NCBI RefSeq assembly: GCF_014243345.1
Contig: NZ_JACLZF010000001.1
Coordinates: 434,001-498,000, forward strand
From: Robiginitalea sp. SC105
Lineage (GTDB): Bacteria; Bacteroidota; Bacteroidia; Flavobacteriales; Flavobacteriaceae
Reading direction: 5' to 3'
DNA: 64,000 nucleotides
In this document: one piece after another, positions 33,508 to 48,137 of the stretch
Numbering within the stretch: position 1 is the first letter of the stretch
Layout of the letters: each line of letters opens with the position of its first letter
Program-made: the position numbers and the translations under genes
The notes under the pieces: model-generated
Told to the model about the DNA's origin: nothing
Databases searched by the model: none
What the model saw: the letters and a program-made list of their open reading frames with translations, nothing else

Positions 33508-35340
33508 CTATAGGATATCACCTTTGAGTTGTTGCCAGACCTTTGCCAGAAGCAGGCCGGCCACCACCACGGCAGCCGACAGGCCTGTCGCCAGTCCATA
33601 ATTGCCATAAATCCAGTTGCCGGTTGCGAACATGCACCCGTACACCAGCACACACCCCAGCAGCATAGCCAGGATGCCCGCGGGGACGGTCCACTTCTTG
33701 CCGCCGTCCACGATGTTTTTGTCTTCTGCCCGCGCCTGGTTCAGGATCTTCCGCCATCCGGGACCCCCCGGCTGTGTCTTTTTGTAAAAGCTATAGAGGA
33801 CCTCCTTTTTTTCCGGGGGTGTCAGCAGGGTGACCACCAGCCAGATGATTGTTACCACCAGGACGATGACGATAAACCGGGACCAGGAGGGCAGGGCGCC
33901 GGGCACGAATACCCCGGCCATGTCCGTATACCCGAACAGGGACTCCGACATATCCGAAAATGTCAGGTAGAGGCTGACAAAGGCCGCCGCAAACATGACG
34001 GAAATCTCGCTCCAGGCGTTGATCCGCCACCAGAACCACCTCAGGATATAAACCAGCCCGGTGCCCGCCCCGAACATGAGCAGGATCTCAAAAAGCTGGA
34101 TGGCGTTGTTCAGCAGCAGGGCCAGGATGGCGCTGGCCACCATCAGGATGACCGTGGAGAGCCGGCCTATATTCACCAGTTCCCGTTCAGACGCATTTTT
34201 GCGGACGGTCTGTTTGTAAAAATCGTTGACCAGGTAGGAAGACCCCCAGTTGAGCTGTGTGGAAATCGTACTCATATACGCTGCCCCCAGGGAGGCCAGG
34301 ACAAGGCCCAACAGGCCGCTGGGCAGCTTGGTAAGCATGGCAGAATACGCCAGGTCATTGCCGAGTTTGCTCTCTTCGATGTGGGGGAATGCCTCGTGGA
34401 TGGAAGCCACGTCCGGGAAGACCACCAGGGAAGCCAGGGCAACCAGGATCCAGGGCCAGGGCCTTAGCGCATAGTGCATGATGTTAAAAAAGAAGGTGGA
34501 TGCCACTGCGTGGTTTTCGTTTTTGGCTGCCAGCATCCGCTGGGCAATGTAGCCGCCCCCTCCAGGCTCGGCACCCGGATACCAGGAGCTCCACCACTGC
34601 ACGGCCAGCGGGATGACCAGGATGGATATCAGGGCTTCGGTATCCGAAAAATCGGGCAGGATGGAGAGTTTCCCCTGGACGTTTTCGTGGTTGATCAGTT
34701 GGGTGATACCCCCCACTTCCGGCAGGTTCACCAAGTAGATGGAGGCCCAGATGGCACCGATCATGGCGGCAAAAAACAAGACAAAATCCGTATAGACCAC
34801 CCCGCGGAAACCGCCAATGGCACTGAAGGTAACCGTGATGACCCCCCCGATGAGCAGCGTCTGTACGGAGGAAAGCCCCAGCATGATCCCGCCGATCTTG
34901 ATGGCAGCCAGGTGGACGGCAGCCAGGGTGATGATGTTAAAAAACAGGCCCAGGTAGATGGACCGGAAACCCCTGAGGAAATGGGCGGGTTTCCCGCCAT
35001 ACCTCAGGTCGTAGAATTCCATATCGGTCAGCACCTCGGATTTGCGCCAGAGTTTTGCATATACAAATACGGTCAGCAGCCCCGTAAGCAGGAAGGCCCA
35101 CCAGACCCAGTTGCCGGACACGCCGTTGTTCCGCACGATATCGGTGACCAGGTTGGGCGTATCGGTGGAAAAGGTGGTGGCGACCATCGAAAAGCCCAGC
35201 AGCCACCAGGGCATGCTCCTCCCGGAAAGGAAGTACTCCGTGGTGTTTTTCCCGGAGCGTTTGGAGACAATGATCCCGATGGTAAGGACAATGGTGAAGA
35301 ACCCTATGATCAGGGCGTAGTCAAGGGTGCTGAGTTGCAT
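33508..35340 (-). CDS. Sodium:solute symporter family protein
   Basis: A 610-residue SSS-family symporter with about 14 membrane segments. Typical features: ALIIGFFTIVLTIGIIVSKRSG start, the FLSGRSMPWWLLGFSMVATTFSTDTPNLVTD block (Na+ site region) near residue 45, and the WWSSWYPGAEPGGGGYIAQRML block near 245. Long charged C-terminal linker and two last helices. Because it is cotranscribed with the NagX-like protein, an amino sugar such as N-acetylglucosamine or a related sugar is the likely substrate; this is inference. Confidence 0.9.
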   Translation of the reverse strand: MQLSTLDYALIIGFFTIVLTIGIIVSKRSGKNTTEYFLSGRSMPWWLLGFSMVATTFSTDTPNLVTDIVRNNGVSGNWVWWAFLLTGLLTVFVYAKLWRKSEVLTDMEFYDLRYGGKPAHFLRGFRSIYLGLFFNIITLAAVHLAAIKIGGIMLGLSSVQTLLIGGVITVTFSAIGGFRGVVYTDFVLFFAAMIGAIWASIYLVNLPEVGGITQLINHENVQGKLSILPDFSDTEALISILVIPLAVQWWSSWYPGAEPGGGGYIAQRMLAAKNENHAVASTFFFNIMHYALRPWPWILVALASLVVFPDVASIHEAFPHIEESKLGNDLAYSAMLTKLPSGLLGLVLASLGAAYMSTISTQLNWGSSYLVNDFYKQTVRKNASERELVNIGRLSTVILMVASAILALLLNNAIQLFEILLMFGAGTGLVYILRWFWWRINAWSEISVMFAAAFVSLYLTFSDMSESLFGYTDMAGVFVPGALPSWSRFIVIVLVVTIIWLVVTLLTPPEKKEVLYSFYKKTQPGGPGWRKILNQARAEDKNIVDGGKKWTVPAGILAMLLGCVLVYGCMFATGNWIYGNYGLATGLSAAVVVAGLLLAKVWQQLKGDIL

Positions 35341-35407
35341 AGTTTGGTCTAGGTTAGGGCTAAATATATTATTTTTTGGGATACCTTTAACCGACTTTCT
35401 TCAGCCC

Positions 35408-36166
35408 ATGCCCCAGGACCTCCTCTTTTCAGAGCTTACCGCGACCGCCTGGATTCTGGCATTGCTGGCGACCTTCGTACAGGGTTTTTCAAAGGCGGGG
35501 ATCAAGGGGACGGCCGTGCTTTCGGTCACCCTGCTCGCCCTCGCGCTGGGCGCCCGTCAATCTACCGGACTGCTGGTCCCCATCCTGATCGTGGGCGATA
35601 TTTTTGCCGTCATCTACTACCACCGCCATGCCCGCTGGGAGTACATCGGCAAATTCCTTCCATGGATGATCGCCGGCATCCTGATCGGTGTCTGGACCGG
35701 GAAGGACCTGCCGGAAAACCTTTTCAAATGGGCCATGGCCGCTATCATCGTGGGGAGTGTGGCCGTGATGGCCTGGTGGGACCTGAGAAAATCGGAACGC
35801 GTACCCACGCACTGGGCGTTCGGGGGCTTTGTGGGTGTCCTGGCGGGTTTTACCACCATGGTGGGCAACCTGGCCGGCGCCTTCTCGAACATCTACTTCC
35901 TGGCCATGCGGCTGCCCAAGAACGCCTTTATCGGCACGGCGGCCTGGCTGTTCCTGATCATCAATGTTTTCAAATTGCCCTTCCACATCTTCGTCTGGAA
36001 GACCATCGACGCAGAGGTGTTGAAAATCAGCCTGGGGCTGCTCCCCGGCCTTGCCCTGGGATTGCTGTGCGGCATCTGGCTGGTGCGCCGCATCCGGGAG
36101 GGGTTCTTCCGGCGGCTCATCCTGATCCTGACAGCCCTCGGCGCCGTGCTCATCCTGCTGCGTTGA
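35408..36166 (+). CDS. TSUP (TauE/SafE) family anion permease
   Basis: A 252-residue membrane protein with eight hydrophobic segments, of the family that exports sulfite, sulfoacetate or related anions. The two repeat signatures appear as GFSKAGIKGTAVLSV near residue 20 and GFTTMVGNLAGAFSNIYFL near 150. The frame opens upstream at 35327, but that part is antisense to the symporter start; the ATG at 35408 is behind TACCTTTA, a near -7 box. A TauE is part of the Staphylococcus cst sulfide operon, so a link to the sulfur island 2 kb further on is possible. Confidence 0.87.
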   Translation: MPQDLLFSELTATAWILALLATFVQGFSKAGIKGTAVLSVTLLALALGARQSTGLLVPILIVGDIFAVIYYHRHARWEYIGKFLPWMIAGILIGVWTGKDLPENLFKWAMAAIIVGSVAVMAWWDLRKSERVPTHWAFGGFVGVLAGFTTMVGNLAGAFSNIYFLAMRLPKNAFIGTAAWLFLIINVFKLPFHIFVWKTIDAEVLKISLGLLPGLALGLLCGIWLVRRIREGFFRRLILILTALGAVLILLR

Positions 36167-38066: not shown

Positions 38067-38480
38067 CTAGTGGGGGAGCTTGTCGCGTAACAACCCGTAG
38101 AACCAGGTGCCCAGCAGGGAGCCGGCAATCACCACCAGGATGGGCAGGAAGCCCGCCCCGACAAGCGTGAACATCGGGCCGGGACACGCCCCCGCAAGGG
38201 CCCACCCCAGACCGAAGATAAAGCCCCCGATCAGGTAGCGCGGGACGCTTTTCTCCTTGGGTTGGAAAATAATGGACTCCCCGTACACGGATTTGATCCG
38301 GAACCTTTTGATGGCCCAGACGATCAGGACGCCCAGCACCACGGCCGTGCCGATAATCCCGTACATATGGAAGGCGTCGAATTTGAACATTTCGTAGATC
38401 CGGAACCAGGAGGCGGCTTCGGATTTAAACATGGTGATCCCGAAGAACACCCCGATCAGCAAATAGATGAAACTGCGCAT
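38067..38480 (-). CDS. YeeE/YedE-type sulfur transporter, second half
   Basis: A 137-residue membrane protein (about four segments) matching the C-terminal half of YeeE/YedE (TsuA-like) transporters, which take up thiosulfate or other sulfane sulfur through a line of cysteines. The signature WALAGACPGPMFTLVGAG near residue 95 carries the conserved Cys. It starts two bases after the partner gene ends, so the two halves form one operon and presumably one transporter. Confidence 0.88.
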   Translation of the reverse strand: MRSFIYLLIGVFFGITMFKSEAASWFRIYEMFKFDAFHMYGIIGTAVVLGVLIVWAIKRFRIKSVYGESIIFQPKEKSVPRYLIGGFIFGLGWALAGACPGPMFTLVGAGFLPILVVIAGSLLGTWFYGLLRDKLPH

Positions 38481-38482
38481 GG

Positions 38483-39040
38483 TTAAAATATTAAGGGGAA
38501 GAGGAAATAAATCATGAGCATCCCGCCGGCAAAGAACCCGATAACGGCCAGCAGGGAGGGCCACTGCAGGTTGCTGAGGCCGGAAATGGCGTGCCCGGAG
38601 GTACACCCCCCCGCATACCGGGCCCCGAAGCCAACCATCAGCCCGCCAAGGGCCAGCAGGATCAGTGATTTGGGGTTGGTGAACTGTTCCATGGAATAGA
38701 GCTCATCGGGCAGGTAGGCCCCGCCGGCACTTTCAAACCCGAGCGATTGCAATTCCGCAACCGTATCCGGGTTGATCTGCACGGCCGCATCCGCGGTCAG
38801 GAAATTCGCCGCTATAAAACCGCCGATCACGGCCCCTAGCATTACCAGGAGGTTCCATTTCTGGGCAGCCCAGTCGAAGCGGAAAAATTCCGAACTGCGG
38901 TCGGCTCCGCACATGGTGCATAGTGTCCGCAGGTTGGAGGACATCCCGAAGTTTTTGCCAACCAGCAGCAATACCAGCATGACCAGGGCAATTGCAGCCC
39001 CGGAAACGTACCAGGGCCAGGGTTCATAGATCCATTCCAT
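38483..39040 (-). CDS. YeeE/YedE-type sulfur transporter, first half
   Basis: A 185-residue membrane protein with about five segments, the N-terminal half of a split YeeE/YedE. The conserved [16 protein letters not shown] near residue 145 contains the transport Cys. An extra cytoplasmic or periplasmic [13 protein letters not shown] near residue 42 has a CxxC pair that could carry sulfane sulfur (inference). Upstream lie a -7 box and a Crp-type palindrome at activating distance, so the pair is probably induced with the rest of the sulfur island. Confidence 0.9.
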
Positions 39041-39085
39041 TCGTATGTGTTTTTGGTTTCAATTTTTTTCTTGTTTCAAACGGGG

Positions 39086-39093
39086 CAAAAGTA
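39086..39093 (-). promoter_or_regulatory. -7 element of the yeeE pair
   Basis: Minus strand TACTTTTG. Its TA is 29.5 bp from the centre of the palindrome at 39114-39131. There is no good -33 box, as expected if an activator sits there. Confidence 0.68.
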
Positions 39094-39113: not shown

Positions 39114-39131
39114 CGGTAACCCAGGTTACAC
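39114..39131. promoter_or_regulatory. Crp/Fnr-type palindrome before the yeeE pair
   Basis: GTAAC-CCAG-GTTAC core (39116-39129) within an 18-bp frame that matches ATGTAAC-N4-GTTACAT at 11 of 14 arm positions. It lies between the sqr stop and the yeeE promoter. The proposed binder is the regulator at 47047-47679. Confidence 0.65.
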
Positions 39132-39149
39132 TCTTGCAGGGCCAGGGAT

Positions 39150-40397
39150 TCAGACTTCCTTGCCTTTCATCATTTTGTTCCAGTAAAGGTAGGGAAGCCC
39201 ATACTTTTTCAGCATCCAGAGCCTCCATGATTCTTTGGAGGAGTCCGTAATGAACATTTGTTTCAGTTTCGGGTCCGGGGTAAAGTTGTTGTCGTAGTCA
39301 AATTCGGCCAGGACCATTTTCCCGTAATCGGTGACCAGCGGACAGGAGGAGTACCCGTTGTAGGTCTTGTAGCCCAGGCCCTGCTGGGCCATCAGCCGAT
39401 TGATGTTTTCGATCACCACGGGTACCTGTTTGCGGACCGCTGCCCCGGTCTTCGCAGTCGGCAGGCCGGCCACATCGCCCAGGCTGAAAACATTCGGGTA
39501 CTTCTTGTGTTGCAGGGTATGCGCATCCACATCCACCCATCCGGACTCGTTGACCAGCGGGGAGTTCCGGACACAGTCCGGTGCCACCGACGGGGGTGCC
39601 GTATGCAGCATATCGTAATGGATGCCGGTCAGGTTGCCATCCGTCTCCGTTTTGATATCCTTGTGGTTGTATTCCTTCATGTGGTCCGCGAACTCATACC
39701 AGGCAATCCGGTTGGCCCCATCGATCCTGACGAGCTTGTAACCAAAACGCAGGTTGATATCTTTGCGGTCCACGACTTCCATCAGGGTCTTTTTGATTTC
39801 AGGGACCCCGAAAATGACCGTCCCCGGTGTCGCAAATACCACCTGGGTCTTGTCGCGGACCCCGGCTTTCCGGAAATAACTCTCGGCCAGGTACATGATT
39901 TTCTGAGGGGCCCCGCCGCATTTGATGGGCGTGGTGGGCTGGGTGAACAGGGCAGTACCGCCCTTGAAATTCTTCAGGACTTCCCAGGTGTGCTCCGGGT
40001 CCGTATAGTTGCTGCAGACCACATCCTTGTCGAGGATTTCTGCCAGGCCCGGCGTCAGGCTCAGGTCGTAGACCAGGCCGGGTGCGACCACCAGGTAATC
40101 ATAGGTGTATTTGGCGCCGGAATCCGTCTTGACGGAATTGTTGGCCGGGTCAAAAGATGCCGCCGGTTCCTGTATCCAGGTTACCCCTTTGGGCATAACC
40201 GATGCCATGGGGCGGGCCGTCTTCTCGTAGGAATAGGTGCCAGCCCCGACCAGCGTCCAGGCTGGTTGGTAATAGTGGGTTTTGGCGGGTTCCACCAGGC
40301 CGATTTTCAGTTTTTTATCGGATCGCAGAAGGGTTGCTGCCGTCATGATCCCTGCGGTACCTCCCCCGATGATCAGAATTTCAAAATGCGTGTCCAT
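39150..40397 (-). CDS. sqr: Sulfide:quinone oxidoreductase, type II-like
   Basis: A 415-residue flavoprotein that oxidises sulfide to sulfane sulfur and passes electrons to quinone at the membrane. FAD motif IIGGGTAGIMTAATLL at the N-terminus, then HYYQPAWTLVGAG, the first redox Cys in TTPIKCGGAPQK near residue 160 and the second in YSSCPLVTDYGKMVLAEFDY near 350, as in the human SQOR group. The amphipathic C-terminus (SWRLWMLKKYGLPYLYWNKM) fits a membrane anchor. The frame is open upstream, but ATG 40395-40397 gives the FAD motif its normal distance. A Crp-type palindrome lies 47-64 bases upstream. Confidence 0.93.
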   Translation of the reverse strand: MDTHFEILIIGGGTAGIMTAATLLRSDKKLKIGLVEPAKTHYYQPAWTLVGAGTYSYEKTARPMASVMPKGVTWIQEPAASFDPANNSVKTDSGAKYTYDYLVVAPGLVYDLSLTPGLAEILDKDVVCSNYTDPEHTWEVLKNFKGGTALFTQPTTPIKCGGAPQKIMYLAESYFRKAGVRDKTQVVFATPGTVIFGVPEIKKTLMEVVDRKDINLRFGYKLVRIDGANRIAWYEFADHMKEYNHKDIKTETDGNLTGIHYDMLHTAPPSVAPDCVRNSPLVNESGWVDVDAHTLQHKKYPNVFSLGDVAGLPTAKTGAAVRKQVPVVIENINRLMAQQGLGYKTYNGYSSCPLVTDYGKMVLAEFDYDNNFTPDPKLKQMFITDSSKESWRLWMLKKYGLPYLYWNKMMKGKEV

Positions 40398-40443
40398 ATC
40401 GAACGGTTTTATACTGCAAGTTACCGTTTTATCGGGCAGGGTT

Positions 40444-40461
40444 ATGTAACCCCTGTTACAT
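40444..40461. promoter_or_regulatory. Crp/Fnr-type palindrome between sqr and sorA
   Basis: ATGTAAC-CCCT-GTTACAT, a perfect 7-bp-arm palindrome and the best of the four copies. On the sqr side a weak -7 element TAACTTGC (minus strand, 40423-40416) lies at 29.5 bp from its centre. On the sorA side it would be near -70. Confidence 0.75.
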
Positions 40462-40509
40462 TCTCTTTCAAATCCATGGCCCCGTATCACAGGGTCCCGG
40501 ATACTATTG

Positions 40510-40517
40510 TAACTTTG
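40510..40517 (+). promoter_or_regulatory. -7 element for the sorA-sorB unit
   Basis: TAACTTTG, a perfect TAnnTTTG, 57 bases before the sorA ATG. It overlaps a degenerate half-palindrome GTAAC-TTTG-GTTGC (40509-40522), which might be a second, weaker binding site. Confidence 0.6.
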
Positions 40518-40574
40518 GTTGCGGTCCCTGTTTCCTTAAAAGTGTAAGTTTAGGGGCTGAACAAATGCACGCAC

Positions 40575-41795
40575 ATGGAAAGACGAAAATTCGTGGGCCG
40601 TTCGGCCCTGCTTTCTCTGGGCAGTTTGCTGGGTGCAGAAATCGTATTCGGTAACCGGCTGCCGGAAGGGCTTTCGCTGCTGGGGCTCCAGGATCCCGAC
40701 CCTTTTGCCCTCTTCGACAAGGACCCCGAGATGGTGGTCCTCAACAGCAGGCCCTGGAACATGGAAGCACAGGCGCACCTGCTGGACGACCCCGTCACCC
40801 CCAATAAATACATGTTTATCCGGAACAACGGCCTGATCCCCGAAAAGCCCGACCCCACCAAATGGCAGCTCACCATCGACGGGGAGGCGGCCCGACAGGT
40901 GAAATCCTACAGCCTGGAAGACCTGAAAAAGAAATTCCGCCCACACACCTACCGGCTTACCCTGGAATGCGGGGGCAACGGACGGAGCGAATTCAACCCG
41001 CCGGCGTCGGGGAACCAGTGGACCGTCGGGGCGGTGTCCTGCGCGTCCTGGACCGGGGTCCGGCTCAGGGACCTGCTGGAAGATGCCGGCTACACCACAA
41101 ACGCGGTGTACATCGGTTACCACGCAGCGGACCGCCACCTCAGCGGGGACCCCGGCAAGGAACCCATTTCCCGTGGGGTCCCCATGGAAAAGGCCCTGCA
41201 GGATGAAACCCTGGTCGCCTACCAGATGAACGGGAAAGACATCCCCATGGCCCACGGGTACCCCTTGCGGCTGGTGGCCGGCGGCTGGCCGGCCTCCGCC
41301 TCCGGAAAATGGATCACCCGGCTGAGTATCCGCGACCGGGTACACGACGGGGCCAAGATGACCGGCGACTCCTACCGGGTACCCTGCGAACCGGTAGCCC
41401 CGGGGACCAAGGTGGCCGATTCGGACATGTGCATCATCGAATCCATGCCGGTAAAATCCCTGATCACCTACCCGAAGACCGGGGCCACCCTGCCCCTGGG
41501 CAGCAGCCTGCCGTTCCGGGGCCATGCATGGGCCGGGGAACTCCGGGTGGCCCGGGTGAAGTATTCCATAGACTTTGGCAGTACCTGGGAGGACTGCTCC
41601 CTGGAGGCCCCCGCCAACCGGCTTGCCTGGCAGCGGTTCAGCGGGGAGGTGAGGTTCCCGCAAAAAGGGTATTACGAACTCTGGGCCCGTGCCGAAGACA
41701 GTGAGGGAAAGGCCCAGCCCATGGTGCTCCCGGGCTGGAACCCCAAAGGGTACCTGAACAATGCCTGCCACCGCATCGCCCTAAAAATCACCTGA
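40575..41795 (+). CDS. Sulfite dehydrogenase, molybdopterin subunit (SorA-like)
   Basis: A 406-residue sulfite-oxidase-family protein that oxidises sulfite to sulfate. The N-terminus MERRKFVGRSALLSLGSLLG is a Tat-like signal, predicting periplasmic export of the folded molybdoenzyme. The Mo-binding Cys is in LTLECGGNGRSEF near residue 136, followed by SWTGVRLRDLLE; substrate Arg candidates are RLVAGGWPASAS. The C-terminal dimerisation domain (PKTGATLPLGSSLPFRGHAWAG to GYYELWARAED) is complete. It overlaps the cytochrome gene by one base (TGATG), as in sorAB-type pairs. Confidence 0.9.
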   Translation: MERRKFVGRSALLSLGSLLGAEIVFGNRLPEGLSLLGLQDPDPFALFDKDPEMVVLNSRPWNMEAQAHLLDDPVTPNKYMFIRNNGLIPEKPDPTKWQLTIDGEAARQVKSYSLEDLKKKFRPHTYRLTLECGGNGRSEFNPPASGNQWTVGAVSCASWTGVRLRDLLEDAGYTTNAVYIGYHAADRHLSGDPGKEPISRGVPMEKALQDETLVAYQMNGKDIPMAHGYPLRLVAGGWPASASGKWITRLSIRDRVHDGAKMTGDSYRVPCEPVAPGTKVADSDMCIIESMPVKSLITYPKTGATLPLGSSLPFRGHAWAGELRVARVKYSIDFGSTWEDCSLEAPANRLAWQRFSGEVRFPQKGYYELWARAEDSEGKAQPMVLPGWNPKGYLNNACHRIALKIT

Positions 41796-42256
41796 TGGAA
41801 GGGAAGGGAAAAACCGGGAAATGGGGCAGCCTTTGGAAAGGGTTGCTTGGGGTTGGGTTGGTGCTAGCCCTGGCGGCTTTCATCTGGTACCGCAGCGGTT
41901 TGCCGGTCCAGGATTCGGGGGACCCGTTGCCGGTACCTGCGGATTCCGTACAGGCGTCCCCTGAGGGAATTTCGGGCGGGATCCACGTGCAGACCGGCTT
42001 CAGGGCGGGGGAAGGACTCCCGGTGGTCATCAGCAACTGCACCCCCTGCCATTCGGCCGAACTGGTCACCCAGAACCGGATGACCCGGGAGGGGTGGGAA
42101 AGCACCATCCGCTGGATGCAGGAAACCCAGAACCTTTGGGAACTGGGCGATAACGAGGCAGTCATCCTGGATTACCTGGCAACCTATTACGCCCCGGAAG
42201 AGAAGGGACGCAGGCAAAACCTGGAAAACATCGAATGGTATGAACTTGAACCCTGA
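41795..42256 (+). CDS. Membrane-anchored cytochrome c subunit (SorB-like)
   Basis: A 153-residue protein with one N-terminal membrane segment (LLGVGLVLALAAFIWY) and a single haem c site NCTPCHSAEL near residues 80-89. Downstream Met candidates for the sixth ligand are in NRMTREGW and IRWMQET; the latter spacing is the commoner one in such small cytochromes. Beginning inside the stop of the molybdopterin subunit, it is the likely electron acceptor for sulfite oxidation. Related small cytochromes accompany sulfite-oxidase-like genes in many proteobacteria. Confidence 0.87.
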   Translation: MEGKGKTGKWGSLWKGLLGVGLVLALAAFIWYRSGLPVQDSGDPLPVPADSVQASPEGISGGIHVQTGFRAGEGLPVVISNCTPCHSAELVTQNRMTREGWESTIRWMQETQNLWELGDNEAVILDYLATYYAPEEKGRRQNLENIEWYELEP

Positions 42257-42259
42257 ACC

Positions 42260-43162
42260 ATGGAGGCGTACGTAGAGGCTTTCTGGAATGCCCTGACCGG
42301 GACCGTGAACTGGACCTGGAAATCCATCCTGTTCCAGGTGCCCTGGTACACGAATTATTTCTGGGGGCTCATTGCCATATCCCTGGTGGTCTGGCTGTTG
42401 GAAATCCTGTTCCCCTGGCGGCGGGAACAGGGCATCTTCCGCAAGGATTTCTGGCTGGATGTCGGCTATATGTTCTTCAACTTCTTCCTGTTCGCCATCG
42501 CCATCAGCGGGTTCTACCGCCTCCTGCAGGTCCTGTTCACGGATCTGGGAATCCGGCCGGACAGCCTGGCGCTGATCGATATGGGCGGCTGGCCCGGGTG
42601 GTTGCAGCTCCTGGTGTTTTTCGTCATCCTGGATTTCGTGCAGTGGTTCACCCACATCCTGCTCCACAAGTACCCCGTATTCTGGCAATACCACAAGGTG
42701 CACCACAGCGTCAAGGAAATGGGGTTTGCCGCCCACCTGCGGTACCACTGGATGGAAAACATCCTTTATAAGCCCCTGAAAACCTTCGGGGTGATGCTCA
42801 TCGGGGGCTTTGAACCCGAACAGGCGTATATCGTTCATTTTGCGGCCATCGCCATCGGCCACCTGAACCACGCAAACATCAAACTCACCTGGGGGCCGCT
42901 GAAATACCTGCTCAACAACCCGGTGATGCACCTCTACCACCATGCCTACCGCCTGCCCGAGGGGCGGTACGGGGTGAATTTCGGCATCAGCCTGAGCCTG
43001 TGGGATTACCTCTTCGGCACCAATTATATCCCGGAGGAAAGCGGCACCATACAACTTGGCTTTGAGGGTGACGAGGACTTCCCGAAAGACTTTATCCACC
43101 AGAACCTCTACGGGTTCGGGCGCAGGCGGGAAAAAGGAGAAAAAGGAAGGATGCAGCCCTAG
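42260..43162 (+). CDS. Sterol desaturase / fatty-acid hydroxylase family protein
   Basis: A 300-residue membrane di-iron protein. The His-box set of the family is complete: HILLH near residue 130, HKVHHS near 145, and HLYHHAYR near 225, with an HANIK stretch between. Hydrophobic segments lie at about 30-50, 70-95, 115-135 and 180-205. Such enzymes hydroxylate or desaturate lipids with O2. It starts three bases after the cytochrome stop, so it is cotranscribed with the sulfite dehydrogenase, an unexpected partner. Substrate unknown. Confidence 0.88.
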   Translation: MEAYVEAFWNALTGTVNWTWKSILFQVPWYTNYFWGLIAISLVVWLLEILFPWRREQGIFRKDFWLDVGYMFFNFFLFAIAISGFYRLLQVLFTDLGIRPDSLALIDMGGWPGWLQLLVFFVILDFVQWFTHILLHKYPVFWQYHKVHHSVKEMGFAAHLRYHWMENILYKPLKTFGVMLIGGFEPEQAYIVHFAAIAIGHLNHANIKLTWGPLKYLLNNPVMHLYHHAYRLPEGRYGVNFGISLSLWDYLFGTNYIPEESGTIQLGFEGDEDFPKDFIHQNLYGFGRRREKGEKGRMQP

Positions 43163-43166
43163 GTTT

Positions 43167-43661
43167 TCAGTAGACTTTTTCACCCCGCTTTAACCAGCGG
43201 CCCCAGGACTTGTTGAAGGCATGGATACGGTCCGTGGGCCCGTCCCTGTCCACAAGGGGCCCGCCCTGGTTCACCCATTCAAATATGCCCCCGTAAAGGT
43301 TGGACACCCGGGTGAAACCGGCCTCCAAAAGCGCTTCGGATACTTTTTCGCTCCGGTAGCCCACCGAACAGTATACCACCACCGGCCGGTCCTTTGGGAT
43401 GGAGGAGACCCGTTCCAGGCTGAAATCGTCGTACCCTACCCAATAAGCCCCGGGTACGTGGCTTACCGAGAATTCCTCCAGGCTGCGGGCATCCAGGAAA
43501 ACCGCGGAATCCATTGCCCGGGCCTCCGGCACCGTGGCTTCCGGCACCGAATGAGACAGCAACCCTTCCAGCCGGTCGTCATAGGCGGCACTCCCGACCC
43601 GTTGCTGGGATACAGCCGAAGTCAGGATGATCAGGAACGCCAGGAAGACCCCTAAGCGCAT
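43167..43661 (-). CDS. Exported single-domain rhodanese
   Basis: A 164-residue sulfurtransferase with a signal peptide (MRLGVFLAFLIILTSAVSQ). The rhodanese domain covers about residues 40-140: VFLDARSLEEFSVSHVPGA and the active loop VYCSVGYRSEKVS with the persulfide-forming Cys in a six-residue loop. So it should act in the periplasm on thiosulfate or persulfides. An alternative Met lies ten codons upstream. It lies 172 bases downstream of the CstB-like gene and probably belongs to its unit; it converges with the sterol-desaturase gene four bases apart. Confidence 0.88.
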   Translation of the reverse strand: MRLGVFLAFLIILTSAVSQQRVGSAAYDDRLEGLLSHSVPEATVPEARAMDSAVFLDARSLEEFSVSHVPGAYWVGYDDFSLERVSSIPKDRPVVVYCSVGYRSEKVSEALLEAGFTRVSNLYGGIFEWVNQGGPLVDRDGPTDRIHAFNKSWGRWLKRGEKVY

Positions 43662-43727
43662 GATACGTGTTGAACGGTATTTCTGGTACATATCGATTGG
43701 GTTGCCCGCTGCAGCCGGGCCGCTGCC

Positions 43728-43752
43728 GGGCCCCGGTTAGTACCCGGGGCCC
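43728..43752. repeat. GC-rich intercistronic hairpin between cstB-like and rhodanese genes
   Basis: GGGCCCCGG (43728-43736), a seven-base loop, CCGGGGCCC (43744-43752): perfect 9-bp arms of only G and C. No T run follows on either strand, so it is not a classic terminator; it may stall polymerase, protect mRNA or lower rhodanese expression. Confidence 0.7.
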
Positions 43753-43833
43753 TGCGCCCTCTGCGGGGTCTCCGCCGGAGCCAACCGGGGAGCCGCAGAT
43801 CGGGAACCGGACTTGCGCCCGGGGCTCCGTTTG

Positions 43834-45252
43834 TTACAGCAGTGTCGTAGGGCAAATATATTCAGTCTTTGGGAGGGAACTTTCCTTTAAGGCGTCAAAT
43901 CCGCCCACGACATCCGTAAAATTGTTCCACCCCCGCTGTTTCAGGATGGAGGAAGCAATCATGCTGCGGTATCCCCCAGCGCAATGCAGCACAAAGGGTT
44001 TGTCTTTGGGGAATTCTGCCAGGTGGTCATTGATTCCTTTCAAAGGGATATTCACTGCATCCACCAGGTGCTCCGAATCGTATTCGCTCTGTTTGCGCAC
44101 GTCGATGATCAGGGGGGTATCCCCCTTGTCCACCAGGTCTTCCAGTTCCTTGACCGTTATCCGCCCCGTGGTTTCTACCTCTCGGCCGGCCTGCTTCCAG
44201 GCTTCAAACCCGCCTTTGAGGTATCCCAACGTGTTGTCATAGCCCACCCGGGAGAGGCGGGTAACCGCTTCCTCTTCCTTCCCGGGTTCCGCAACCAGGA
44301 GGATGGGGTGCTTCACATCCGGGATGAGCTCGCCCACCCAGGGCGCAAAATCCCCACCAAGCCCGATATTGATGCTGTTCGGGATAAACCCTTTTGCAAA
44401 AACCGCTGCATCCCGGGTATCCAGGACCAGGGCCCCGGTTTCATTCGCCGCCGCTTCAAAGGCTTCCGGGCCAAGTGCCCGCGTACCCCGCTCCATCACC
44501 TGGTCCAGGGACTCGTACCCCCGGATGTTCATCAGTACATTCTGCGGGAAATACCCGGGGGGCGCGGTGAGACCGGTGAGCAACTCCTCGATGAATTCCT
44601 CCCGGGTCATATCGGCACGGAGTGCATAGTTGACCTCCTTCTGGTGGCCCAGGGTGTCCGTGGTTTCCTTGCTCATCATTTTCCCGCAGGCCGATCCCGC
44701 CCCGTGGTTCGGGTAAACGATCAGGTGGTCCGGGAGCGGCATGATCTTGTTCCGGAGCGAATCATACAGGTGGGAGGCCAGTTTTTCCTCGGTCAGTTCC
44801 GACACGACGTGCTGCGCCAGGTCGGGGCGCCCCACGTCCCCTATAAACAGGGTGTCCCCGGTAATGATGCCGTGTTCCCTCCCCTTCTCGTCGATCAGGA
44901 GGTAGGTGGTGCTTTCCATGGTATGGCCGGGGGTATGGATGACCTTCACCTTGTAATCCCCGATTTCAAATACCTGTCCGTCTGCTGCCACCAGGGCTTC
45001 GTATCCCGGTTTTGCATTCGGGCCAAAAACAATTTCGGCCCCTGTTTTCTTGCGCAGGTCCAGGTGCCCGCTGACAAAGTCGGCATGGAAGTGGGTTTCA
45101 AAGACGTATTTGATCCTGGCGTGGTCCTTTTTGGCCCGGTCGATGTAGGGCTGTACCTCCCGCAGCGGGTCAAAGACGGCCGCCTCGCCCCTGCTTTCGA
45201 TGTAGTAGGCTGCATGCGCCAGGCAGCCGGTATAAATTTGTTCAACTTTCAT
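43834..45252 (-). CDS. CstB-like persulfide dioxygenase-sulfurtransferase
   Basis: A 472-residue three-domain fusion. Residues 1-245 are a metallo-beta-lactamase fold of the ETHE1/CstB type, with metal ligands in ETHFHADFVSGH near residue 57, VIHTPGHTMEST near 115 and the Asp in GDTLFIGDVGRPD near 140. Residues 265-360 are a rhodanese domain lacking the catalytic Cys (the loop reads LLVAEPGKEE), residues 370-465 an active one with LHCAGGYRSM. This is the layout of Staphylococcus CstB, which oxidises persulfides to sulfite or thiosulfate. The ATG at 45250-45252 starts the family block MKVEQIYTGCLAHAAYYI; the longer frame upstream is antisense-like. A Crp-type palindrome lies upstream. Confidence 0.9.
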   Translation of the reverse strand: MKVEQIYTGCLAHAAYYIESRGEAAVFDPLREVQPYIDRAKKDHARIKYVFETHFHADFVSGHLDLRKKTGAEIVFGPNAKPGYEALVAADGQVFEIGDYKVKVIHTPGHTMESTTYLLIDEKGREHGIITGDTLFIGDVGRPDLAQHVVSELTEEKLASHLYDSLRNKIMPLPDHLIVYPNHGAGSACGKMMSKETTDTLGHQKEVNYALRADMTREEFIEELLTGLTAPPGYFPQNVLMNIRGYESLDQVMERGTRALGPEAFEAAANETGALVLDTRDAAVFAKGFIPNSINIGLGGDFAPWVGELIPDVKHPILLVAEPGKEEEAVTRLSRVGYDNTLGYLKGGFEAWKQAGREVETTGRITVKELEDLVDKGDTPLIIDVRKQSEYDSEHLVDAVNIPLKGINDHLAEFPKDKPFVLHCAGGYRSMIASSILKQRGWNNFTDVVGGFDALKESSLPKTEYICPTTLL

Positions 45253-45279
45253 GGCTAATCCCGATTTTAGGTTTAACAC

Positions 45280-45287
45280 GAAAGATA
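45280..45287 (-). promoter_or_regulatory. -7 element of the cstB-like gene
   Basis: Minus strand TATCTTTC, one mismatch from TAnnTTTG. Its TA is 29.5 bp from the centre of the palindrome at 45308-45325. Confidence 0.6.
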
Positions 45288-45307
45288 AAAAACGCGTGCC
45301 GGAAGTA

Positions 45308-45325
45308 CAGTTACCTTTGTTACAT
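45308..45325. promoter_or_regulatory. Crp/Fnr-type palindrome before the cstB-like gene
   Basis: CAGTTAC-CTTT-GTTACAT. The right arm is perfect, the left arm matches at four of seven positions. It overlaps the stop codon of the upstream SulP gene, showing the cstB-like gene can be controlled separately from it. Confidence 0.6.
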
Positions 45326-47050
45326 AAGGCGCCGGGCCGTCTGGGTGGACACCTTGTGCTCCATGTCGGATTTCCCGGTGGCTTCCATACAGTGCTGCAA
45401 CGCCTCGAAGGTCCGGACAAACTGGTTCTCCCGCCCAATCTCTTCGGCGAGCCCGCTGCTGAAGAGGATGTCGCGGGTTGGCCCGGTGGCCCCGGCGAGC
45501 AGGAATCTGATCCCGTCACGCCTGAGGTCGCGGATAAAGGCGCGCAGCATGAATACGGCCGAGCTGTCGATATAGCTGATGGCCTCTGCGTTCAGGATGA
45601 TGTATTTAAGTTGCGGCCCTTTTAGCCGGATATGCTTTTCGAGTTCCTTCCGGAAATAGTCCTTGTTGCCAAAGAACAGCTGCCCGTCAAAACGGAGGAT
45701 CAGGAACTCGGGGAACTCTTCGATATCCTCTGAGAACCGGTTGATGTTCTTGAAGTAGTCCGTACCCAGGATACGCCCAAGGATGGCGATATGCGGCATG
45801 GAAATCCGGTAGACCAGCAAGAGGAGCGAAAACAGCACCCCGAGCAGGATGCCTTCTTTGATCCCAAGCCCCAGGGTGAGCCCGAAGGTCACCAGCAGGA
45901 GGGCAAATTCGTCCTTCCGGTTTTTCCAGAGTTCCCGGGGGTACTTCAGGTCGATCAGCCCGAAAACCGCAACCATGATGATGGCCGCCAGGACGGCATT
46001 GGGCAGGAAATGGAAAAGCGGGGTCAGGAACAGCAGGGTCAGCCCCACCACCAGGCTGCTGACCAGCGCGGCCATCCCGGTTTTGGCGCCGGCCTGGTCA
46101 TTCACCGCCGTACGCGAAAACCCCCCGGTTGTGGGGTAAGACTGGAAAAGGGAACCCAGGATATTCGATATCCCCAGGGCCCGCAGTTCCTGGTTGGGGT
46201 CCAGGCGGTTTTCCCCGTGTTTTTCCTCCACCGCCTTGGCCACTGAAATGGCCTCCATAAAGGCTATCAGCGAAAGCGCCAGGGCAATGGGGAACAATTC
46301 GCTGACCCGGTCCGCCCGGATTTCGGGAAATTCCAGCAGGGGCAGCCCGCCCGGTACTTCCCCGACAATCCGGACCCCCTGTTGGTCCCATCCGAGCAGG
46401 TAAACTGCCAGCGTCCCCAGCACCACCGCGGCTAGTGCCCCCGGGATGCGGGGTGCCAGCCGCTTGAGCCCGAGGATCAGGGCCACCCCGACCAGGCCGA
46501 GCCCAAGGGTAAGCCAATGGGTTCCGGGCAGGGCGGCAGCAGCCCCGGCGAGCAGGACCTGTATCTTGTTGCTTCCGGCTATCTCGGTGCCCAGAAGGTG
46601 CTTGAGCTGGCTCAGGCCGATGATGATCGCGGCCGCCGAGGTAAAGCCGCTGATGACGGGCCGGGACAGGAAGTTCACCAGGAAGCCCATCCGCAGCAGG
46701 CCAAAGGCCAGCTGGAGCACCCCCATGAAGAGGGCCAGGAAGATGGCCATGGCGATGTATTCCTCGATCCCGGAAAGGGCGAGGGCCCCCAATCCGCTGG
46801 CCACCAGCAGGGAATCCATGGCCACGGGTCCCACGGATAACTGGCGGGAGGTGCCCGTGAGGGCATAAATTACCTGGGGGACCAGGGAGGCATACAGGCC
46901 AAACACGGGGGGCAGCCCCGCGATCATCGCATAGGCCATCCCCTGGGGGATCAGCATGATGCCCACCGTCAGCCCTGCCGACAGGTCGCCGGAAAGGTAG
47001 GCCTTCCGATAGGCCGGCAGCCATTCCAGTATGGGGAAAAACCGTTTCAG
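45320..47050 (-). CDS. SulP-family anion transporter
   Basis: A 576-residue membrane protein with a C-terminal STAS domain, of the SLC26/SulP family that moves sulfate, bicarbonate or other anions. The signature GIMLIPQGMAYAMIAGLPPVFGLYAS follows the N-terminus, and the STAS domain (about residues 460-570) has the phosphorylation-type NAEAISYIDSSAVFML. The conserved N-terminal part FFPILEWLPAYRKAYLSGDLSAGL lies before the first usable GTG (46966), and no ATG, GTG or TTG precedes it in frame. The CTG at 47050-47048 overlaps the regulator's TGA as CTGA, so I take it as the start. In this setting the anion is probably sulfate or sulfite. Confidence 0.85.
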   Translation of the reverse strand: MKRFFPILEWLPAYRKAYLSGDLSAGLTVGIMLIPQGMAYAMIAGLPPVFGLYASLVPQVIYALTGTSRQLSVGPVAMDSLLVASGLGALALSGIEEYIAMAIFLALFMGVLQLAFGLLRMGFLVNFLSRPVISGFTSAAAIIIGLSQLKHLLGTEIAGSNKIQVLLAGAAAALPGTHWLTLGLGLVGVALILGLKRLAPRIPGALAAVVLGTLAVYLLGWDQQGVRIVGEVPGGLPLLEFPEIRADRVSELFPIALALSLIAFMEAISVAKAVEEKHGENRLDPNQELRALGISNILGSLFQSYPTTGGFSRTAVNDQAGAKTGMAALVSSLVVGLTLLFLTPLFHFLPNAVLAAIIMVAVFGLIDLKYPRELWKNRKDEFALLLVTFGLTLGLGIKEGILLGVLFSLLLLVYRISMPHIAILGRILGTDYFKNINRFSEDIEEFPEFLILRFDGQLFFGNKDYFRKELEKHIRLKGPQLKYIILNAEAISYIDSSAVFMLRAFIRDLRRDGIRFLLAGATGPTRDILFSSGLAEEIGRENQFVRTFEALQHCMEATGKSDMEHKVSTQTARRLM

Positions 47051-47679
47051 AGGTCGATAATTTTAATGTGGTTGCGGTGGAGTTCTATCTTTCCCATTTG
47101 CTCCAGCTTCTTCAGCAACCTGGAAATCACCACGCGGGAACTATGGAGGTCGTAGGCAATCTCCTGGTGCGTATTCCGGATGATGGGTTCGCCGGCGATG
47201 CGCGCTTTTTCCCTGAGGTAGTTGACCAGCCGCTCATCCATGTTCATGAAGGCAATGCTGTCGATGGCCTGGAACAATTTGTTCAGGCGGTTGTTGTAGC
47301 TTTCAAACACGAAACTGCGCCACGTGGGGTATTTGGCCACCCATTCCTCCATCTTCCGGACGGGCACCATGATGAGTGTCGCGTCGGTCTCGGCCACGGC
47401 CCGGATTTCACTTCGGGCCTGGCCCATGCAGCAACTCATGGTCATGGAACAGGTATCCCCCTGTTCCAGGTAGTACAGCAGGAGCTCATCACCGTCCCGG
47501 TCTTCGCGCAGGATCTTGATCACCCCGGAAATGAGCAGGGGCATCCCTTTGATATACTCGCCGATCTCCAGCAGCTTGCTGCCGGCAGGCACTTCCTTAA
47601 CGACGCCTACAGCGGCGATTTCCTCGAGCAGCGGCTCTTCGAACTGGTTTCCGTAACGCTCCCTGAGTCCTTGTATCAT
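47047..47679 (-). CDS. Crp/Fnr-family transcriptional regulator
   Basis: A 210-residue regulator with an N-terminal cyclic-nucleotide-binding-like domain (about 15-120), a dimer helix (130-150) and a C-terminal winged helix. The recognition helix region reads HSSRVVISRLLKKLEQ near residue 180, close to NtcA's RVTVTRLL, and NtcA-type proteins bind GTA-N8-TAC, which is the core of the four palindromes in this island. Three cysteines at positions 77, 83 and 84 (GDTCSMTMSCCMG) lie where Crp proteins bind their ligand and could sense persulfide (inference). The cAMP-binding RxS motif is not intact. It follows the DUF983 gene by five bases and overlaps SulP by four. Confidence 0.92.
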   Translation of the reverse strand: MIQGLRERYGNQFEEPLLEEIAAVGVVKEVPAGSKLLEIGEYIKGMPLLISGVIKILREDRDGDELLLYYLEQGDTCSMTMSCCMGQARSEIRAVAETDATLIMVPVRKMEEWVAKYPTWRSFVFESYNNRLNKLFQAIDSIAFMNMDERLVNYLREKARIAGEPIIRNTHQEIAYDLHSSRVVISRLLKKLEQMGKIELHRNHIKIIDL

Positions 47680-47684
47680 GCTGG

Positions 47685-48074
47685 TTATTTTACGTCCCGG
47701 GCAATTTCCCGGTCGAACTTAAAAAAGAAGTTGGCCCATATAGATTTGGAAACGGCGCCGATCCAGGGCATCAGCAGTACCAGGACCGCCACGATGACCC
47801 CGAAAATCCCGCCAACCCCCAATTCGAGGCCGGTGAGGAGGATGATCACGAACACGGCGATGGCAACTGCCACGCCCACGCCGTAGGACACGTACATGGA
47901 GCCGTAATAAAAACTCGGTTCTATGCGGTATTTCAACTGGCATTTCGGGCAGGTTTCCCGGACCCGGTTCATACTGGCGAGGTCATAGGGATGGCTTTGG
48001 AGGAATGCCCCCTGATGACAACGCGGACATTTGAGGAATACAATGCTGTAGAGCTTACTTCCTTTTCCGAACAT
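47685..48074 (-). CDS. DUF983-family membrane protein
   Basis: A 129-residue protein with a zinc-ribbon-like start, FLKCPRCHQGAF and ETCPKCQLKY (two CxxC pairs), followed by two membrane segments (GVGVAVAIAVFVIILLTGL and GIFGVIVAVLVLLMPWIG). The function of the family is unknown. It is the first gene of the unit with the regulator and SulP, so the palindrome at 48120-48137 would control all three. Confidence 0.87.
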   Translation of the reverse strand: MFGKGSKLYSIVFLKCPRCHQGAFLQSHPYDLASMNRVRETCPKCQLKYRIEPSFYYGSMYVSYGVGVAVAIAVFVIILLTGLELGVGGIFGVIVAVLVLLMPWIGAVSKSIWANFFFKFDREIARDVK

Positions 48075-48091
48075 GCTTGAATGGTTTGGTC

Positions 48092-48099
48092 CAAAGGTA
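48092..48099 (-). promoter_or_regulatory. -7 element of the DUF983-regulator-SulP unit
   Basis: Minus strand TACCTTTG, a perfect TAnnTTTG, 18 bases before the ATG. Its TA is 29.5 bp from the centre of the palindrome at 48120-48137. A -33 box is lacking. Confidence 0.7.
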
Positions 48100-48119
48100 T
48101 CAATTGCCCCCTGGGAGTT

Positions 48120-48137
48120 ATGTGACCGCGGTTACAT
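48120..48137. promoter_or_regulatory. Crp/Fnr-type palindrome before the regulator operon
   Basis: ATGTGAC-CGCG-GTTACAT, one mismatch from the perfect copy at 40444. It implies that the regulator activates its own operon. Confidence 0.68.

Follow-up and report, generated by a model that had tools for sequence, protein, structure and literature searches.

Within the window, a stretch of 64,000 nucleotides from Robiginitalea sp. SC105, we analyzed an island around a Crp/Fnr-family regulator (47047–47679, minus strand). PF00027, PF13545, and PF00325 all scored above their cut-offs for this protein, which contains Cys77, Cys83, and Cys84 and the recognition helix SSRVVISR. Its operon, on the minus strand, begins with a DUF983 protein (47685–48074) and includes a SulP-family anion permease carrying a STAS domain (45320–47050), for which we propose a CTG start codon at 47050, overlapping the regulator stop (CTGA). 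The minus strand also encodes a persulfide-dioxygenase-like protein of the MBL fold (43834–45252), which includes two rhodanese stretches, and, downstream of it, a rhodanese-domain protein (43167–43691). An SQR-like flavoprotein (39150–40397, minus strand) had type III sulfide:quinone reductase as its closest NCBIfam family, below the cut-off (NF049943: E 1.2e-70, 238/525 bits). It is followed on the same strand by yeeE1, one half of a YeeE/YedE-type sulfur transporter (38483–39040; Sulf_transp, PF04143), and its DUF6691/Sulf_transp partner yeeE2 (38067–38480), which was searched as 38067–38522 and whose start was placed at the ATG right behind the yeeE1 stop. The plus strand encodes a sorA-like molybdopterin sulfite dehydrogenase (40575–41795; under the curated NCBIfam cut-offs), a sorB-like c-type cytochrome (41795–42256; NF052246, 27.8/93 bits), and directly after it a fatty-acid hydroxylase family protein (42260–43162).

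Palindrome–box geometry

Four ATGTAAC-N4-GTTACAT-like palindromes had been predicted in this region, each with the TA of a minus-strand TAnnTTTG-like box exactly 29.5 bp from its center. Direct reading and a script recovered all four base for base (centers 39122.5, 40452.5, 45316.5, and 48128.5), and the first T of a minus-strand TAnnTT-type −7 box was located at 39093, 40423, 45287, and 48099, exactly 29.5 bp from the center in 4/4 cases. When the entire window was scanned with relaxed criteria, these four places and a fifth emerged, so the original prediction was correct in its sites and short in their number. The fifth site (40509–40522), on the plus strand before sorA, had been missed.

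E. coli CRP and FNR dimers are centered at −41.5 when they act at class II promoters. In PMC9723704, mapped starts of Flavobacterium psychrophilum have the −7 box at −12 to −5, in agreement with the earlier placement of the T of TAnnTTTG near −12. Combined with the 29.5-bp spacing, this box position centers all predicted operators at −41.5, the class II distance from a start taken from the F. psychrophilum box.

On the minus strand, predicted operator 1 (39114–39131; core GTAACCTGGGTTAC, 39116–39129) precedes yeeE1–yeeE2, with the box TACTTTTG at 39086–39093 and a predicted +1 at 39081. Operator 2 (40444–40461), a perfect ATGTAAC-N4-GTTACAT, precedes sqr (box TAACTTGC, 40416–40423; predicted +1 at 40411); its box matches the TAnnTTGY variant, named SM5 in F. 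psychrophilum. Operator 4 (45308–45325; core GTAACAAAGGTAAC, 45310–45323) lies before the persulfide-dioxygenase-like gene (box TATCTTTC, 45280–45287; predicted +1 at 45275). It overlaps the SulP stop, and in plus-strand writing its left half reads GTTAC, not GTAAC. Operator 5 (48120–48137; core GTAACCGCGGTCAC, 48122–48135; box TACCTTTG, 48092–48099; predicted +1 at 48087) heads the DUF983–regulator–SulP operon and would thus provide autoregulation. Operator 3, the plus-strand site before sorA (40507–40524; core GTAACTTTGGTTGC, 40509–40522), has the box TAAGTTTA at 40545–40552, 29.5 bp from its center, and a predicted +1 at 40557.

Chance expectation and genome-wide search

When the window was simulated 300 times with a first-order Markov model, GTNAC-N4-GTNAC palindromes occurred 0.29 times per copy on average (maximum 3; observed 4), and the composite of palindrome, 22 bp, and TAnnTT never appeared (observed 4). 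The whole genome (3,575,612 bases) holds 30 such palindromes, four of them within a 9-kb stretch, while a control pattern with the palindrome letters reversed occurs 62 times. We inspected the flanks of all 26 other genomic palindromes for boxes. With repeated sequence contexts counted once, TAnnTT stood at 29.5 bp in 5/60 oriented palindromes, as compared with 27 occurrences at the other 105 offsets together (7.5 to 112.5 bp; ~0.26 per offset), giving a Poisson P of ~8e-6 before allowing for the choice of offset. Control palindromes in the home genome had a box at 29.5 bp in 0/20, 0/2, and 0/20 cases.

The search also extended the four-site regulon of the original prediction. One more exact site lies elsewhere in the genome, before a second persulfide-dioxygenase-like gene, and a tsdA-like gene has a weak candidate site at 30.5 bp, off by 1 bp; in the two genus relatives with this gene, it has a site at 28.5 bp in one and none in the other. 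No 29.5-bp site was found for the genome's third persulfide-dioxygenase homologue (L215, L308) or its second tsdA-like gene (L203, L307). A perfect 16-mer at C1:1800885 is without a box at 29.5 bp; ~20 bp downstream of it comes the first start codon of a multihaem cytochrome gene that shares its operon with an NrfD gene.

Conservation of the sites

Within the genus, the sorA site at 29.5 bp and the regulator-operon site (operator 5) were present in 10/10 genomes examined, the home genome included, and sites at 29.5 bp preceded SQR and the persulfide-dioxygenase homologue in 9/9 other genomes each. In the SQR–yeeE1 gap, one relative (G002) has a site with the box TAGATTTG, and four (G006, G005, G008, and G001) have TTnnTTTG-type boxes at the identical spacing, as read off the sequences; 4/9 relatives (G003, G004, G007, and G009) showed no clear counterpart of the yeeE site in this gap. 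Both yeeE and sorA are among the predicted targets within the genus.

Beyond the genus, we examined 78 regulator-bearing loci, i.e., the best 80 of at least 589 relatives minus two from Robiginitalea (L100, L101). Sites near a locus end (30–100 bp) were skipped, and repeated contexts were again counted once. TAnnTT was found at 29.5 bp on at least one side of 191/217 palindromes, and 73/78 loci had at least one such palindrome. Counted by orientation, it occupied this offset in 200/437 cases, while none of 85 other offsets exceeded 15; for TAnnTTTG, the numbers were 114 versus at most 1. Control palindromes had the box at 29.5 bp in 1/49, 0/32, and 0/18 cases. The 29.5-bp spacing therefore stands out in the home genome and in these loci, and the motif is not equally frequent or spaced at random, bearing out the original claim that the spacing is unlikely to be accidental. 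We also searched 207 loci from the box alone, taking any dyad 29.5 bp upstream of TAnnTTTG, which yielded 77 dyads versus 5–11 at 16 shifted centers. This set includes 80 loci from the class-level matches listed (the first in order, then a thinned selection) and at least one repeat (L224 and L143 are apparently the same contig); 206 regulator proteins are distinct.

All these loci were selected because they carry the regulator, and they share ancestry; their counts are therefore not independent events, and the sites of the genus relatives are homologous. Even so, the Markov copies, offset counts, control palindromes, and shifted dyad centers led us to reject chance as the origin of the pattern. 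Shared ancestry of one DNA segment would not account for a spacer that is largely unconserved in its base frequencies between an operator and a box conserved at constant distance, or for sites before different genes on both strands; controls and shifted centers gave only background. We consider coincidence or common descent in place of functional constraint to have a negligible probability.

Among 247 genomes of the window's class, which we take to be Bacteroidia, at least 149 have a regulator homologue at E 1e-20 or better, and the motif accompanies the island regulator in many Flavobacteriales. The exact 16-mer was present in 28/48 relatives with a homologue versus 3/12 without (60 genomes), a modest difference for which genome size was uncontrolled.

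Genes behind the sites

The 310 distinct sites, with repeated contexts counted once, precede persulfide-dioxygenase homologues (94), DUF983 (25), SQR (16), the regulator (14), SulP (12), sorA (9), rhodanese (8), fatty-acid hydroxylase (6), yeeE1 (4), and PDO2 (3) genes. Another 106 lie before genes that do not resemble the reference set, and for 13 there is no ORF. The largest cluster among the 106 comprises 44 loci and is TauE/SafE according to the Pfam match of one member, leaving 62 sites outside it. Predicted targets across loci include persulfide-dioxygenase–rhodanese, SQR, TauE, SulP, and the operon of the regulator itself. For 297 site–ORF pairs, the predicted leader had a median length of 19 nt (quartiles 14–29).

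The candidate regulator and predicted operators

The AlphaFold2 model of the regulator (pLDDT 85.8, pTM 0.61) matched CRP/FNR structures in Foldseek (best E 6.5e-15). Since TM-scores reached only 0.5–0.66 and the rmsd exceeded 9 in most rows, the model suggests a domain arrangement different from that of the matched structures. The best solved-structure match in both sequence and fold was PDB 3dv8, a putative Crp/Fnr-type regulator from Eubacterium rectale, which has cysteines aligned with Cys77 and Cys83 but shares only 25% identity and carries an HREVITR helix (Glu, not Val).

Taking the best regulator match per locus, we found Val at the CRP-181 position in 159/207 homologues and Glu in 48/207. 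A GTNAC site at 29.5 bp accompanied 117/159 Val-type but only 8/48 Glu-type loci. For the latter, a relaxed unbiased dyad search gave no clear peak (9 versus 3–7 at eight shifted centers); even so, a GTAAC site accompanies one Glu-type regulator, L145. As a possible sign of covariation between recognition residue and operator, a GTGAC-type sequence formed one or both halves of 7/9 Glu-type and 39/283 Val-type sites (Fisher P 4e-5, the sites not being independent and 40/48 Glu-type loci having no such site).

A PF13545 (HTH_Crp_2) search of the genome found three proteins, the island regulator included. Another Crp/Fnr protein of the cell, an HcpR- or FNR-like factor answering to nitric oxide or oxygen, might use the sites while the island regulator acts elsewhere. 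HcpR2, a Crp/Fnr protein of Bacteroides, Clostridium, and Thermotogales, has the identical predicted core GTAACnnnnGTTAC (PMC1274295; Rodionov 2005). The GTAAC-N4-GTTAC core is therefore not new, and of the "new-looking Crp/Fnr regulon" originally proposed, it is the regulon that looks new. According to the same paper, HcpR2 is also without the FNR-type Fe–S cysteine motif, but it has Pro at position 181, where the island regulator has Val and the 207 homologues Val or Glu, and it goes with hcp, whereas sulfur genes predominate among the predicted targets here. No hcp was found in the genome (0 matches to TIGR01703, with matches in 5/14 control genomes); this and the Val in place of Pro at 181 led us to reject an HcpR-type NO regulon. 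The other two HTH_Crp_2 proteins have the recognition helices TATETTIR and TATESCIR, with Thr instead of Arg at the CRP-180 position by eye, and in many genera the sites adjoin the island regulator. Among the proteins found by PF13545, a different binder is very improbable. The differing helices and the co-occurrence of motif and regulator across Flavobacteriales support the island regulator as the best candidate for the protein that would use the predicted operators.

When centered at −41.5, Crp/Fnr proteins generally activate transcription. The fixed spacing fits activation, although spacing alone is also compatible with a regulator that blocks the polymerase from about −50 to −33 and is released by sulfur. 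Among known sulfide sensors, SqrR, BigR, and CstR act as repressors, as do most of those named in two reviews, in which FisR is described as an activator. A repressor would not need an invariant center, since its operators may overlap the promoter in many places, and one base-exact position is shared by 200 of the 437 oriented palindromes, the next best by 15. Repression therefore seems unlikely, and the sequence evidence points strongly to activation by the island regulator.

Cys77 is present in 207/207 homologues, Cys83 in 182, and Cys84 in 162; the model is least confident around Cys83 and Cys84 (pLDDT 66). The FNR oxygen sensor has an N-terminal Fe–S cysteine motif, whereas the regulator sequence contains no cysteine ahead of Cys77. 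The invariant Cys77 and the many sulfur genes under predicted control favor (per)sulfide sensing through Cys77 as a working hypothesis. It is quite conceivable, however, that the regulon is right and the signal is another one: a bound small molecule (thiosulfate or sulfite), haem/NO as reported for HcpR, or general redox stress. Haem binding is reported for B. thetaiotaomicron HcpR, and two homologues without Cys83 and Cys84 still adjoin sulfur genes, L084 beside yeeE, persulfide-dioxygenase, and SulP (site at 29.5 bp), and L090 beside yeeE (site at 28.5 bp).

Relation to known systems and proposed mechanism

When solved structures were searched by profile, the match following 3dv8 was NtcA of cyanobacteria, and its recognition helix TRVTV aligns with SRVVV, so that the Val at the CRP-181 position has a counterpart there. 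NtcA recognizes GTA-N8-TAC, a pattern that GTAAC-N4-GTTAC also fits, and works as an activator at about −41.5 in response to 2-oxoglutarate and nitrogen. It differs in phylum and regulon and lacks the Cys triad in the aligned stretch. The NCBIfam equivalog scores of the island regulator were below threshold for both NtcA (45.4/244.95 bits) and CRP (59.4/266 bits). As compared with E. coli CRP and FNR, the promoters here have the flavobacterial −7 box TAnnTTTG instead of a −10 element, and the half-site is another; the alignment suggests that the cAMP pocket of CRP is replaced by a Cys-containing loop.

Named sensors regulate sulfide oxidation in Proteobacteria and Firmicutes. SqrR/BigR (ArsR), CstR (CsoR-type), and FisR (Fis family) are described as cysteine-based (per)sulfide sensors that control sqr and/or persulfide-dioxygenase genes. 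The conserved Cys77 would suit a thiol-based sensor of this kind, but the protein is a Crp/Fnr member in Bacteroidota. Among the mostly top-ranked matches of our literature searches, no sulfide or sulfane-sulfur sensor was named for Bacteroidota or for the Crp/Fnr family.

We consider it highly probable that the palindromes are operators of the Crp/Fnr activator at 47047–47679, which would drive class II activation of a sulfide-oxidation and detoxification regulon, its own operon included, in response to a sulfur signal. A regulator dimer would bind GTAAC-N4-GTTAC centered at −41.5 and recruit RNA polymerase to promoters that have a −7 box but whose spacer shows no further conservation. From sulfide, SQR would produce sulfane sulfur, which the MBL-fold persulfide-dioxygenase–rhodanese proteins would oxidize to sulfite, to be oxidized in turn by SorAB or, in many other species, exported by TauE; YeeE and SulP would move sulfur anions. 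As its own operon is a target, the regulator would form a self-amplifying loop. The signal would most likely be reduced or sulfane sulfur acting on Cys77, together with Cys83/Cys84, where CRP binds cAMP. More tentatively, a Crp/Fnr activator lineage widespread in the class could use an invariant cysteine, located in what was once the cAMP pocket, to sense reactive sulfur and switch on sulfide oxidation. If true, this would be a sulfide-sensing Crp/Fnr branch working by activation, possibly in other phyla too, because 3dv8, from a Firmicute, keeps two of the cysteines.

With their base-exact spacing, these sites also form a natural data set on how class II activation works at Bacteroidota promoters with their unusual −7 element. 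This marine flavobacterium appears to switch on its sulfide-oxidizing genes as one set through one regulator. If the model is right, the regulator, operator, promoter geometry, and regulon would be defined together for many Flavobacteriales, and sequence alone would predict which genes are turned on when sulfide appears.

Architecture of the Predicted Promoters

The original prediction described four palindromes with TAnnTTTG-like boxes on the minus strand as the operators of one Crp/Fnr regulon. Within the home genome, the 64-kb window spans C1:434001-498000. Direct reading of the sequence and a scripted search showed both palindromes and boxes to be correct to the base. All four sites were retained, but one place had been overlooked. 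A relaxed palindrome-plus-box scan of the whole window returned five places, the fifth being the sorA promoter on the plus strand (palindrome 40509-40522, box TAAGTTTA at 40545-40552).

The palindrome centres lie 29.5 bp from the first T of the box. According to a study of mapped transcription starts in F. psychrophilum, the –7 box spans –12 to –5, with the consensus TAnnTTTG and a variant TAnnTTGY (PMC9723704). This geometry would therefore place the palindrome centres at –41.5. The sqr box, TAACTTGC, matches the TAnnTTGY variant. The leaders predicted from the coordinates are 41 nt for yeeE1, 14 nt for sqr, 18 nt for sorA, 23 nt for the persulfide dioxygenase gene and 13 nt for DUF983; over 297 site–ORF pairs from the window and the fetched loci, the median was 19 nt.

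None of 300 copies of the window simulated with a first-order Markov model contained the composite of palindrome and box, which was observed four times in the window itself. The home genome (3,575,612 bases) holds 30 GTNAC-N4-GTNAC palindromes, all of which were checked in both orientations. The sorA site falls outside the GTNAC pattern and was left out of both counts. Genome-wide, the spacing proposed in the original prediction was not random: TAnnTT stood at 29.5 bp in 5 of the 60 oriented palindromes, against 27 occurrences over the 105 other offsets combined. The fifth genomic GTNAC palindrome with a box at this distance (C1:1880460, TATTTTTG) precedes a second MBL-rhodanese gene. At C2:1258749, a box (TACATTTG) was found at 30.5 bp, upstream of a SoxA/TsdA-type cytochrome gene.

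A perfect TGTAAC-N4-GTTACA was also seen at C1:1800885-1800898 of the home genome (3886-3899 of the fetched locus L059), with no –7 box at 29.5 bp. The gene that follows encodes a multihaem cytochrome, its first start codon some 20 bp downstream of the palindrome; one protein each of the 4Fe-4S and NrfD types is encoded in the same operon. This is possibly a repressing or other use of the same operator.

Conservation of the Sites

Across the home genome and nine other genomes of the genus, the sites before the regulator operon, sorA, sqr and the persulfide-dioxygenase homologue were each present at 29.5 bp in 10/10. The yeeE site was more variable. In G002, the gap between SQR and yeeE1 contains a palindrome 29.5 bp from its box, TAGATTTG, with yeeE1 and yeeE2 downstream. 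Reading the same gap in G001, G005, G006 and G008 revealed palindromes at an identical distance from boxes of the TTnnTTTG type, and the gaps of G003, G004, G007 and G009 had no clear counterpart.

Beyond the genus, we took the best 80 named loci of at least 589 relatives and set aside two labelled Robiginitalea. In the remaining 78 loci, TAnnTT occurred at 29.5 bp on at least one side of 191 of 217 palindrome places. Counted by orientation, this amounted to 200/437, with 15 at the next-best offset; for the full TAnnTTTG, the values were 114 and 1. At least one site at 29.5 bp was present in 73 of the 78 loci, the exceptions being L124, L128, L170, L171 and L176. A palindrome-blind search, which accepted any dyad with its centre 29.5 bp upstream of a TAnnTTTG box and was run on 207 loci among the matches listed, yielded 77 dyads at this centre as compared with 5–11 at each of 16 shifted centres.

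The spacer between operator and box was mostly devoid of conservation in the 78 loci. In their 200 sites, the operator flank on the promoter side reads T G at –34/–33 (0.67/0.65), where dyad symmetry predicts A T, and the T of the far flank is kept at 0.92. The asymmetry may be left over from a –33 element recognised by the sigma factor.

The Candidate Regulator and Its Predicted Targets

Pfam, the structure model and a fold search all identified the regulator (47047-47679, minus strand) as a Crp/Fnr protein. A search of the home genome found three HTH_Crp_2 matches, whose recognition helices read SSRVVISR (the regulator), TATETTIR (in a fusion with a response regulator) and TATESCIR (in a protein resembling FNR). 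Rodionov and others correlated operator bases with CRP positions 180 and 181 (PMC1274295). At these positions, the regulator retains the Arg of CRP and carries Val in place of Glu. By profile alignment, the same swap is found in NtcA, whose target is GTA-N8-TAC.

Among the matches listed, 207 homologues comprised 159 with Val and 48 with Glu at this residue; sites were found at 117/159 Val-type and 8/48 Glu-type loci. GTGAC-like sites made up 7/9 for the Glu-type vs 39/283 for the Val-type, the sample being small, and the Glu-type locus L145 has a GTAAC site. In the 73 dyads of Val type from the palindrome-blind search, the half-sites read TGTAAC.

Of 310 distinct sites, 94 lie upstream of persulfide-dioxygenase–rhodanese homologues, followed by DUF983 (25), SQR (16), the regulator (14), SulP (12), sorA (9), rhodanese (8), a fatty-acid-hydroxylase protein (6), yeeE1 (4) and PDO2, a second persulfide-dioxygenase-like gene (3). 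Another 106 lie before other genes, and no ORF follows the remaining 13. Clusters among the 106 were named by the Pfam match of one member each. The largest was the TauE/SafE sulfite-exporter family (44 loci), then cytochrome c/Tll0287-like proteins (15), AhpC/TSA peroxiredoxins (11), YgaP-like transmembrane proteins (10) and outer-membrane efflux proteins (9); cytochrome bd oxidase subunit I accounted for three sites in two loci. The names 'SQR', 'SorA' and 'persulfide dioxygenase' are used at family level, since several window genes score below the curated NCBIfam cut-offs.

Some further features of these genes were observed. A TauE/SafE-family gene in the window (35327-36166) has no operator at 29.5 bp, frequent as this predicted target is elsewhere. 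SulP apparently starts at a CTG overlapping the stop codon of the regulator (CTGA, 47047-47050); its first in-frame ATG, GTG or TTG is a GTG at 46966, which would trim the beginning of the Pfam match. The PDO2 homologues of G009 (L205) and G002 (L206) contain one in-frame TAA within the aligned stretch.

Cysteines, Possible Signal and Known Systems

In the 207 homologues among the matches listed, Cys77 is invariant, and Cys83 and Cys84 are present in 182 and 162, respectively. In the alignment, these residues would fall in the loop that carries the cAMP-binding residues of CRP. Model confidence is lowest in this cysteine loop, with a mean pLDDT of 66 over residues 81–90. Given the predicted sulfur-gene targets and the invariant cysteine, our best guess for the signal is reactive sulfur. 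Homologues lacking Cys83/84 are still found beside sulfur genes (yeeE, persulfide dioxygenase and SulP in L084; yeeE in L090). A Firmicute homologue of known structure, the Crp/Fnr protein of Eubacterium rectale (PDB 3dv8), has cysteines in the Cys77 and Cys83 columns.

The original prediction called the Crp/Fnr regulon new-looking. The palindrome motif itself is not new, because HcpR2 had already been assigned its core, GTAACnnnnGTTAC, in a 2005 prediction (PMC1274295). Among the matches listed from the open-licence literature and in passages of two reviews, we found neither a Crp/Fnr regulator of sulfide oxidation nor a sulfide sensor of Bacteroidota, which does not prove their absence. We class the predicted regulon as a Crp/Fnr class II regulon. 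Cysteine sensing, if true, would represent a new sensory variant.
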